A stretch of 64,000 bases of DNA, from positions 1 through 64,000 of the forward strand of contig NZ_JAAITU010000005.1 of assembly GCF_013304385.1 (NCBI RefSeq). Direction: 5' to 3'. Positions within the stretch are counted from its first letter, which is position 1; each line of letters opens with the position of its first letter. The notes below the pieces were generated by a model that was not told the origin of the DNA, did no database searches, and saw only the letters and a list, made by a program, of their open reading frames with translations. The position numbers and the translations under genes were made by a program. This document shows positions 6,143 through 37,039 of the stretch, piece after piece. Source of the stretch: Blautia glucerasea (lineage in GTDB: Bacteria > Bacillota > Clostridia > Lachnospirales > Lachnospiraceae).

Positions 6143-7215
6143 TCACCTAATAAATGTCATTAGGTTATCTCGAATTTTTCTAGGCAAGCTAGATTTGATT
6201 CTCCTTAGAAAATTCACAATTATCAAACTAATGGCAAAAACCACTGCAACAACCACTAATGAGCACAATGTATTTTCCTGAAATTCCGTAATAGTAACAT
6301 TCATGCCTACACGTTGCGTTCCCATTTCAGCAATTTTTAATACGATTCTTTTAATTGGCTCATGTACAGCTAAAATTGTAATCGTATTCTGACCGAGAAA
6401 CTGTAGAAATGTATTCCGTGTAACGAACCACTTACATACAAATCCTAGCCATATGGAGCCGATAATTCCGCCTAGCATAAATAATAAATAATTTTTTCCA
6501 TATAAATTACTCCACATCGACACCCCTGGATTCAAATATCCTATTGCTACAGAAAGCAAATAAAGTAGGCTTGTTAAAAAAATCTTCTGCTTAGATGCTA
6601 ATGATATCATTCTTATATCTTGCTCAACGATTCCGCATATATATCCGAAGATGTACCACATTAAACCATTTAAAAATCGCAAAAACCACGATGACAAAAA
6701 GCTTGCTGGCAGCACCAACTTTAGAGCAAACCATAAAACAGAAACAAAACAACATACGAAAACGATCCAAAAAGAATTACTTTTTTTATTGTAAAAAATC
6801 GGATACGCCACAAGTTCCGCAAGATATAGTATAATAAGAAACCATATCGGTCCCATATCAAAATCTCTAAAATGAGATTCAATTACAATCCAGTATATAA
6901 ACAGTAATAATCTAAACAGAATAAACGGCCAAAGAATTGATTTAGTTCGCTTCAGCAAAAATTTCCGAAATGGAATATTCTTTCCAAATTTGTATAATAT
7001 GTAACCTGATAATGCAAAAAACAGTGGCATATGGAATGTATAAAGCCATTGAACTAGAAAACCTTTTGTGTTCACATGACCAATGACCACTAGAATGATT
7101 CCTATACCTTTTAGTACATCAATCCAGTCTGCTCTGCTCTGCTCTGCTCTGCTCTGCTCTGCTCTGCTCTGCTCTGCTCTGCTCTGCTCTCAAGAGTATT
7201 CTCTCCTTTGTACAT
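6143..7215 (-). CDS. Acyltransferase-3 family membrane protein, phase-variable, currently out of frame
   Basis: The body of the protein reads from codon 7129 as DWIDVLKGIGIILVVIGH, the conserved first helix of acyltransferase-3 proteins with the catalytic-type His. About ten membrane helices follow, to the stop at 6143. Immediately before this come 12 copies of a 5-bp unit (7131-7190). The best start is the ATG at 7215, behind AAAGGG that overlaps the end of the flippase gene. A TTG at 7193 also has GGAGAG. With 12 units neither start is in frame: the ATG frame stops at 7111, the TTG frame at 7119, and the acyltransferase frame is closed by TGA at 7190-7192. The ATG needs 11 or 14 units, the TTG 10 or 13. 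It probably O-acetylates the polysaccharide when on. A GTG at 7090 is an unlikely internal start. Confidence 0.85.
7131..7190. repeat. Pentanucleotide tandem repeat (GCTCT)12 in a coding N-terminus
   Basis: Twelve perfect copies of GCTCT on the plus strand (AGAGC on the coding strand) lie between the start codons and the first transmembrane helix of the acyltransferase. In any frame the repeat codes for a soluble tail of Ala, Glu, Gln, Ser and Arg, so copy number can change without harming the protein. Each gain or loss of one unit moves the frame by two or one bases. Confidence 0.97.
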
Positions 7216-35400: not shown

Positions 35401-35949
35401 TTATACAGTTTGCTTTTTATGATCGCAAAAGCGACTTACCATCCATACTGCCAGCGCTGAAGCAAGCAGGCCTATCAAGAAGCCGGCCAGTACATCTGTA
35501 GGATAATGAACTCCCAGATACAGCCTTGAAAAGGCGATCATACAGGCCAGGACCAGGGCCGGGATCCCGTATTTCTTTGGCAAAAGCCTGAAATACACAA
35601 AAGCACTTGCAAATGAAGCGCAGGTATGCCCTGATGGAAAAGACCAGTCTATTGGCTTGGTGACAATTGGGATCAACGCACTGTATGTATCATATGGTCT
35701 GACTCTTGCAACCATATTTTTCAGACATACATTAGTGATCAGCGCTCCGATCACAAGGGCAATTGCTGCTGCCGCGCCTGCTTTCCTGGTTTTCTTCATG
35801 ATCAGCAGGACAACTGCCAGAAGGATCCAGAACCATCCTCCGTCTCCCAGAAATGTGATGGCTCTCCAGAATCCATTCATCCATTCTTTTCGGATATGCT
35901 CCTGGATATATAAAAGAATAGAGATATCTGCATTTTGAATTATATTCAT
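35401..35949 (-). CDS. PAP2-family membrane phosphatase
   Basis: A 182-residue protein starting MNIIQNADISILLYIQEHIR with about five helices. The three phosphatase motifs are present: KNMVARVRP near residue 80, PSGHTCASF near residue 106 and SRLYLGVHYPTD near residue 145. It hydrolyses a lipid phosphate such as undecaprenyl pyrophosphate or phosphatidate at the membrane. The length is usual for the BcrC/YodM-type group. The capsule cycle needs undecaprenyl phosphate recycling, but a direct link is inference. Confidence 0.88.
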   Translation of the reverse strand: MNIIQNADISILLYIQEHIRKEWMNGFWRAITFLGDGGWFWILLAVVLLIMKKTRKAGAAAAIALVIGALITNVCLKNMVARVRPYDTYSALIPIVTKPIDWSFPSGHTCASFASAFVYFRLLPKKYGIPALVLACMIAFSRLYLGVHYPTDVLAGFLIGLLASALAVWMVSRFCDHKKQTV

Positions 35950-36054
35950 TTTTCTGACCCTTTCTTTTCTTAGTACGCAAAAAGAATATCAGAAAACAGA
36001 TTACACTATTTATCCCAAAATGTAAAGCTTGTAAAACAGCATTGCCGGATTTCA

Positions 36055-36233
36055 AGTCGAGCAGCCGCGAGACTTGGCGCGTGATTCTGGTCAGCGTAAG
36101 CTGACATATTCTTTACAGAATCACTGCGCATCCTCGCGGAGCGTTTATCTCAGTCGGAGATTGGACTCCCACTGAGACGAACTTGCTGTTACTCACCACC
36201 TGAAAGAGGTGGGAGTCTTCTCGACTGAGATAA
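36055..36233. ncRNA. Highly structured intergenic element, candidate ncRNA or miniature mobile element
   Basis: Domain 1: CCGCGAG/CTCGCGG (36065-36071, 36133-36139) encloses GCGC-GTGATTCTG opposite CAGAATCAC-T-GCGC (36077-36089, 36116-36129), capped by GTCAGC-GTAA-GCTGAC (36090-36105). Domain 2: perfect 12-bp arms TTATCTCAGTCG and CGACTGAGATAA (36145-36156, 36222-36233) enclose GACTCCC/GGGAGTC and CCACCT-GAAAG-AGGTGG, which overlap and exclude each other. AGTCGAG (36055-36061) can also pair with CTCGACT (36220-36226), closing the whole element. Strand is not decidable. The rest of 35950-36259 holds nothing else. Confidence 0.55.
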
Positions 36234-36259
36234 AATCATCTTTTCACGAATAAAACCTT

Positions 36260-37039
36260 TTAAAACAGCATTTCACGGATTGCTTCATTGATCATATGTT
36301 TGTGAAGGGCACCATCTTTATCCTTATCCGGGATTTCCAAAAGCACAGCACCAGGAATATGCTTTGCCAGATATTCTCCATATTCGTAAGGATGGCACAG
36401 ATCATTCCTGCAGGCCAGAATGGTAACAGGAACCTGGATATTCTTCAGCACCTCCACATTAGGAATAGGCGTCTTATCCGGCAGGATCTGATATTTCTGC
36501 CAGTATTTAACACAGGCTTTATCTTCAAAAGGAGAAGTAAATGCATTGCAGGTATAAGCAGACGGCTCCTTTACGATCTGCCACCCTTCGGTGGTATAAA
36601 ACCGCTCAATGCCTCCCTCCTGCAAACAGGCTCCCAGATCATAATACGCTTTCTGAACCTTATCTGACATAGGATGATCTGTCCATGCATTCCGGATCAG
36701 AAGAAGCTTTTCGACCTTCTGGGGATATCTTACAGCTAGATTCAGACATACTGCAGCTCCCATAGAGATTCCTGCAAAGTACGCCTTTTTAATTTCCAGT
36801 CTGTCCATTAAATCACACACATCATCAGCAAGATGATCAAAGTCAAATTTCTCCCAGCAGGCTTCACTTTCACCGTGGCCCTGCTGGTTCAGATTGATCA
36901 GACTTACCCCTTCAAGCGGCTCATAGGTAGACTGGATCTGCTTTACGCTTCCTCCCATGCCATGCAGAAATATGAAGGGTATCCCTTCACCACTGATCTC
37001 ATATTCCAGGTGAAGACCATGATTTATCCATTTATACAT
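36260..37039 (-). CDS. Alpha/beta hydrolase
   Basis: A 259-residue protein; the ATG at 37039 (MYKWINHGLHLEYEISGEGI) has GGAGGAG. IFLHGMGGSVKQIQSTYEPL is the oxyanion loop region. FAGISMGAAVCLNLA near residue 90 carries the nucleophile Ser. RNDLCHPYEYGE near residue 215 gives the acid, and a final His lies near LHKHM. It overlaps the isomerase gene by 8 bp and ends the Gfo/Idh operon. It may hydrolyse an ester or lactone intermediate of the pathway. The substrate is not identifiable. Confidence 0.85.
   Translation of the reverse strand: MYKWINHGLHLEYEISGEGIPFIFLHGMGGSVKQIQSTYEPLEGVSLINLNQQGHGESEACWEKFDFDHLADDVCDLMDRLEIKKAYFAGISMGAAVCLNLAVRYPQKVEKLLLIRNAWTDHPMSDKVQKAYYDLGACLQEGGIERFYTTEGWQIVKEPSAYTCNAFTSPFEDKACVKYWQKYQILPDKTPIPNVEVLKNIQVPVTILACRNDLCHPYEYGEYLAKHIPGAVLLEIPDKDKDGALHKHMINEAIREMLF

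Follow-up and report, generated by a model that had tools for sequence, protein, structure and literature searches.

The insertion sequences IS608 and ISDra2 insert strand-specifically, as single strands, on the 3' side of a short target in the lagging-strand template; they encode TnpA, and their folded ends carry short, subterminal hairpins with a guide tetranucleotide located 5' of the hairpin (PMC6006769, PMC8266576). The palindrome-associated transposable elements (PATEs) of the archaeon Haloquadratum walsbyi encode no transposase, produce no target duplication, retain a short targeting oligonucleotide, and bear palindromes near their ends; they are described as having no terminal inverted repeats, also occur as end-only versions of about 50 to 60 bp that arise by core deletion, and are mobile in genomes with little intact TnpA, with many of them matching IS605 ends (PMC3119063). 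REPs and REPINs, which are gene-less palindromic repeats found mostly between genes and characterized by a GTAG/GTGG foot and inverted doublets, are presumed to owe their spread to a transposase acting in trans (PMC3116915, PMC6006769).

The locus studied here lies in a 64,000-nucleotide stretch of the Blautia glucerasea genome (contig NZ_JAAITU010000005.1, positions 1 to 64,000; hereafter the window), where a 179-bp element (Table 1), reaching slightly wider at its left limit than the 36055-36233 given in an earlier note made from the letters of this DNA, is situated between two minus-strand genes, an alpha/beta-hydrolase gene (at its stop end) and a PAP2-family gene. That note had reported no coding gene, and this holds: the element is intergenic and has no protein-coding content, the sole open reading frame that reaches it (107 aa; 35732-36055) overlapping the PAP2 gene and extending 5 nt into the element. 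When the genome to which the window belongs (G000, 175 contigs) was searched at the DNA level, 13 near full-length copies with 95 to 100% identity were recovered at unrelated loci, along with many partial copies. When copies were read with their flanks, they shared the limits TTCAAG...CTCGACTGAG, outside of which the DNA was unrelated; hence, the genome-wide copy count that the note had proposed speaks for mobility. About twelve copies in this genome are end-only, with the first 11 to 14 bases joined to the last 45 to 50, and the slight differences among their junctions are what core deletions arising separately would produce. Two further forms occur in this genome: a second subfamily of about 40 copies, which has the same architecture and is ~78% identical over the right half, and a third form whose end resembles a terminator. 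Three copies of the second subfamily (L358, L375, and L355; G000:C85, C175, and C43) comprise domain 1 alone and share an identical last base (GGCTATATC); these perhaps represent a mobile domain-1-only form. An imperfect 20-bp direct repeat flanks the copy in the window (36024-36043, AAAGCTTGTAAAACAGCATT; 36253-36272, AAACCTTTTAAAACAGCATT), with its right copy lying at the end of the hydrolase gene. Neither this repeat nor the direct repeat TAAAACAGCATT around the copy in the window is a target duplication, as they do not abut the element.

The folding potential of the element far exceeded chance on both strands: the whole element gave z values of -8.9 as minus-strand DNA and -7.8 as plus-strand RNA, and the stretch 36055-36200 gave -6.9 and -7.9 on the two strands, with none of 200 shuffles reaching the respective value in any of these cases. 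All of the helices named in the earlier note are present, including the hairpin with the GTAA tetraloop and the two mutually exclusive stems (GTGGGAGTC/GACTCCCAC versus AGGTGG/CCACCT, options A and B of the P4 domain). The 12-bp terminal arms that it had described exist as 13-bp outer arms of P4 (Table 1). In the fold of the minus strand as single-stranded DNA, the ends are paired by AGTCGAG/CTCGACT, leaving TTTAT and TTGAA unpaired outside.

Table 1. Coordinates of the element and its parts in the window
Feature	Position	Strand	Basis or remark
Complete element	36051-36229	+ (strand reading P1 to P4)	13 near full-length copies with the same limits; three empty sites
Putative transposing strand	left end 36229, right end 36051	-	
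AGTCGAG, left arm of terminal stem	36055-36061	+	Pairs with 36220-36226; closes whole-element fold
CTCGACT, right arm of terminal stem	36220-36226	+	Sequence and whole-element folds
P1	36053-36076	+	CAAGTC 36053-36058/GACTTG 36071-36076; covarying helix 1 in family alignments
P1 alternative	CCGCGAG 36065-36071/CTCGCGG 36133-36139	+	Seen in folds
Domain of GCGC clamp, P2, P3, and bulge	36077-36129	+	Helices 3 and 4 of alignment
GCGC clamp	36077-36080/36126-36129	+	Extends P2
P2, 9-bp stem	36081-36089/36116-36124	+	
P3 hairpin GTCAGC-GTAA-GCTGAC	36090-36105	+	GTAA loop; sits on P2
Bulge ATATTCTTTA	36106-36115	+	
Conserved core ATCCTCGCGGAGCG	36130-36143	+	With preceding TGCGC, most conserved stretch of superfamily
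Internal TTTAT	36144-36148	+	Complementary to host ATAAA 36230-36234; candidate guide for target choice
P4 domain	36144-36234	+	Folds; same pairing options in relatives
P4 outer arms, 13 bp	36144-36156/36222-36234	+	
P4 local hairpin	36148-36154/36171-36177	+	
P4 option A	GACTCCCAC 36164-36172 with GTGGGAGTC 36209-36217	+	Mutually exclusive with option B
P4 option B	CCACCT 36196-36201 with AGGTGG 36207-36212	+	AGGTGG is part of GTGGGAGTC
Host target TTTAT (ATAAA on plus)	36230-36234	-	ATAAA right junction at two empty sites; 5 nt coding in the third

The element belongs to a superfamily defined by covarying stems around a near-invariant core (ATCCTCGCGGAGCG). In a contig scan with the 19-mer TGCGCATCCTCGCGGAGCG, the organisms among the matches listed were Lachnospiraceae or close kin, with a few high-GC chance matches, and the matches listed parse to a single architecture (P1 palindrome, GCGC, P2 with P3 and the bulge, TGCGC-ATCCTCGCGGAGCG, and P4), in which the P4 hairpin is simple in some members and extended in others. 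When 25 diverse members were aligned, 88% of the cells paired, with 132 both-side changes versus 39 in shuffles. For 101 distinct model matches, in an alignment that was fitted to the derived model and hence leans toward it, 93% of the cells pair, with 719 both-side changes versus 197 and a covariation score of 0.67 versus 0.18 when shuffled; helices 3 and 4 are paired in 95% and 92% of the cells, respectively, with many compensatory changes. Model matches were found in 68 of the 392 sampled genomes of the order, 59 of which are Lachnospiraceae going by the organism names of the matches. To judge from these sequences, the element is scattered over gut Lachnospiraceae and rare outside them. Phage and plasmid collections yielded no match to the element, and a core scan of viral contigs gave two chance-like matches only.

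Strong covariation around a near-invariant core, together with the terminator-like hairpin in which certain copies end (class C; see below), would suit a structured RNA gene or a cis-regulatory RNA (riboswitch, attenuator, or extended terminator) of which the copies are passengers, and an ncRNA or riboswitch-like device had been among the suggestions of the earlier note. We consider this improbable. No Rfam match was obtained at gathering and permissive thresholds alike, dozens of near-identical copies are dispersed over unrelated loci, and the orientation of the copies tracks replication rather than the neighboring genes (see below). Furthermore, wobble pairs outside P1 amount to 66 G-T versus 56 A-C cells, and neither strand shows a clear sign of RNA-type selection there; the wobble excess of P1 (58 G-T versus 13 A-C) is confined to a few outer pairs. 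The covariation that the note had named as the mark of an RNA gene is indeed strong, but it lies between mobile subfamilies, which argues for selection on the folded nucleic acid that moves and not for an RNA gene.

A search with the joined flanks of the copies in 64 genomes of the genus recovered three empty sites in relatives, which resolve the insertion as having occurred beside a retained 5-bp host sequence without target duplication. Two of these, in G046, read ...CTG-ATAAA-CCTC and ...ATC-ATAAA-TGAC, where G000 has element-ATAAA-CCTC and element-ATAAA-TGGC. The third concerns a copy in G000 (L012, 2020-2211) that interrupts an alpha-L-rhamnosidase-like gene (identified by its domain); the gene is uninterrupted in G044, with five other bases at the matching place, and removal of 179 bp with ATAAA kept restores the frame (K-F-I-D-F-G versus R-L-V-D-F-G in G044). 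Thus, the stretch 36051-36229 was inserted, ATAAA is host DNA, and nothing was duplicated, which sets the element apart from classical MITEs, with their target-site duplication. A first reading of the boundary, with TTCAA as the target, was rejected because the empty sites retain ATAAA and not TTCAA. The 5 bases after the element vary among copies (e.g., ATACA, ATAAC, and ATGAA), with the CTGAG end of the element itself remaining constant; subfamily 2 ends in ATATA, and variants are present there too.

The orientation of the copies was found to follow replication. In a relative with a complete genome (G009; 3.59-Mb chromosome contig), the model recovered 101 hits; among the 72 of these that were listed, the minus strand carries 42 of the 44 situated before 1.795 Mb, and the plus strand 27 of the 28 beyond it, i.e., 69 of the 72 listed copies follow the replichore (Fisher p = 2e-16), with the GC skew, sampled in 20-kb stretches, flipping sign between 1.64 and 1.76 Mb. 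Gene direction is not the explanation of this bias, since 13 of the 15 copies that are not flanked by two leading-strand genes still follow the replichore. By a noisier measure, 54 of 66 copies in G000 follow the GC skew of their flanks, and the copy in the window likewise follows its flanking skew (-0.15 to -0.19). The strand on which TTTAT comes first is the lagging-strand template. The polarity derived from the strand bias is the same as that derived from the empty sites for an insertion of the IS200/IS605 type, and the two lines of evidence are independent.

The explanation that we consider likely is that of a mobile DNA element that is non-autonomous and transposes in the form of folded single-stranded DNA. 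This agrees with one suggestion of the earlier note, a miniature element of the IS200/IS605 kind, for which the many near-identical copies, the retained TTTAT without duplication, and the lagging-strand orientation all speak. On the minus strand, the host TTTAT is followed by the left end (P4 domain), and the right end (P1 domain) finishes with ...CGACTTGAA. The single-stranded element is predicted to fold into a closed multi-arm structure, with the terminal stem joining its ends; an HUH-type (IS200/IS605-like, Y1) transposase supplied in trans would cut both ends, possibly giving a circular intermediate, and insertion would take place 3' of a TTTAT-like sequence exposed on the lagging-strand template. 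The two P4 stems that exclude one another may be alternative states, with the outer P4 stem pairing TTTAT with its internal complement during target recognition. The sequence just after the core switches together with the target between subfamilies: TTTAT is replaced in subfamily 2 by TATAT at the same position, with ATATA at the end of the element. The internal pentamer complements the target in both of these subfamilies, yet it lies within a long stem and is not a tetranucleotide 5' of a hairpin; a canonical guide of the latter kind was not identified 5' of either end hairpin of the element. The internal complementarity probably helps target choice. TTTAA occurs in other subfamilies, where it was seen as element sequence only, without empty sites.

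Copies in which P4 begins with TTTT, designated class C, have a TTTTT...AAAAA terminal hairpin (L073, L078, L065, L056, and L088-L191). The 45 bases beyond their right end form a strong fold in 68% of 50 cases, versus 10% of shuffles and 24% upstream; the corresponding region of the TTTAT copies shows a weaker excess (32% versus 8% and 12%). On the transposing strand, class C copies are situated immediately 3' of a hairpin that bears a T-tract, i.e., behind terminator-like sites, which suggests that terminator T-tracts are the target of this class. Such a placement, together with the lagging-strand bias, could also result from RNA-mediated insertion by a reverse transcriptase like those of group IIC introns, a route that would favor both terminators and a single-stranded lagging-strand template. 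We hold this to be very improbable. Group II introns are marked by a GUGYG 5' end, an AY 3' end, and domain V; the ends of the element, read directly, are not GTGYG...AY, no Rfam hit was obtained, a catalytic intron core would not fit in the element, the target is a simple one of 5 nt, and the lack of wobble asymmetry outside P1 noted above applies here as well. Class C copies also occur in head-to-tail tandems with a spacing of ~134 bp (L165, about 6859-7000; L187, 2837-2971).

A transposase gene with matching ends (TnpB, RAYT, or Y1) was not found in the loci searched. Y1 genes are present in G000, and its own TnpA/TnpB elements were considered as parents and rejected, as their ends differ. 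No Y1 gene was adjacent to an intact element or bordered by its ends in the surroundings of the core matches or in the fetched Y1 loci; the nearest, and only, neighboring Y1-type gene among the core-bearing loci is a RAYT ~3 kb from the copy in L123. Searching the Y1 loci with the model recovered, besides one weak match, only the truncated copy that was known before, and the Y1 loci fetched from copy-rich genomes had no adjacent element beyond one weak match. No correlation was seen between the presence of Y1 genes and copy number: a single Y1 fragment is present in G009 (101 hits), and none in G045. In G383, which has at least 8 well-matching copies, no Y1 hit was obtained. IS605-type tnpA/tnpB elements of G000 are broken by contig ends at two places (L029, end of G000:C32; L064, end of G000:C87), and full mobile elements may therefore be missing from the draft assembly.

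The GGTGGGAG hairpin and its upstream CTCCCAC partner resemble 3' ends located behind tnpB genes (e.g., AAGTGGCGGGAGC, L403), which would be in keeping with a remnant of a TnpB (IS605/IS1341) element in which P4 is an omega-RNA scaffold plus right end that guides TnpB in trans; the earlier note had likewise mentioned an omega-RNA-like end. This appears extremely unlikely, as the ends of the element have no homolog at the ends of the TnpB elements in 30 fetched loci of the genus, the one longer match (L389) proved to be a truncated copy that stands apart, on the far side of another gene, PF07282 had no match in G000, no tnpB was found beside the copies, and members with a simple P4 are entirely without the hairpin. 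Mobilization of a REP/REPIN-like repeat by a domesticated RAYT (TnpA-REP) would account for a palindromic, mostly intergenic, multicopy repeat that is moved in trans, and RAYT-type proteins do occur in some carriers (L123 and L431). Here too we see only a slim chance, given that a RAYT-sized Y1 protein is missing in most of the carriers examined, the RAYT of G369 has another repeat at its flanks, and the element has no GTAG/GTGG foot; RAYT was accordingly rejected as the partner. A less remote, though still unlikely, alternative is that the mobilizing enzyme of the superfamily lies outside the recognized Y1 transposases and reads the single strand by its fold and near-invariant core. Single-strand transposition would then have a new class, one whose target is chosen through pairing by the folded element itself and of which one branch homes to the T-tracts of terminators.

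Returning to the favored explanation of a non-autonomous element moving as folded single-stranded DNA, a comparison with the known systems places it as an unusually elaborate, new variety of the PATE/REP-like kind. It shares with IS608 and ISDra2 the retained short target, the strand-specific insertion into the lagging-strand template, and folded ends, but encodes no TnpA, and no Y1 TnpA-encoding element was found to have its ends in common; thus, it works like a non-autonomous member of the IS200/IS605 group, and we hold back formal membership because no matching TnpA was found. It resembles the PATEs in all of the features listed at the outset except that it has a 7-bp terminal stem (AGTCGAG/CTCGACT), lacks a matching IS, shows a conserved arrangement of multiple helices around a near-invariant core, and is bacterial rather than archaeal. 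Its fold is far larger and more elaborate than those of REPs and REPINs, and it has no inverted doublet, no REPtron, and no flanked RAYT gene. No earlier account of the family was found in the open-access literature searched, with PATEs and REPs being nearest.

The family, which reaches 60 to 100 hits per genome in common gut bacteria and has no Rfam entry, offers a natural record of insertion into the lagging-strand template and a large single-stranded DNA fold whose stems covary around a near-invariant core. It also makes it possible to test whether target pairing is specific to the subfamily, the sequences concerned being TTTAT, TATAT, and possibly TTTAA or a T-tract. Its insertions are found by promoters (pta), by terminators, and in genes; hence, they may shape gene ends. 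The copy at L008 (1501-1684; G000:C109:102754-102937) has a TATAAT-like box on one side and, on the other, the start of a gene whose product resembles phosphate acetyltransferase (pta) at its beginning, so that it would be in the leader of this gene; the G046 copy at the same pta-like site carries a 29-bp internal tandem duplication (L062 and L239). In another locus (L431), a RAYT-type Y1 gene is flanked on both sides (1120-1200 and 2255-2340) by a different palindromic repeat (CTCTCCTTTGGGGACGGGG...), making it a candidate REPtron of the Lachnospiraceae.
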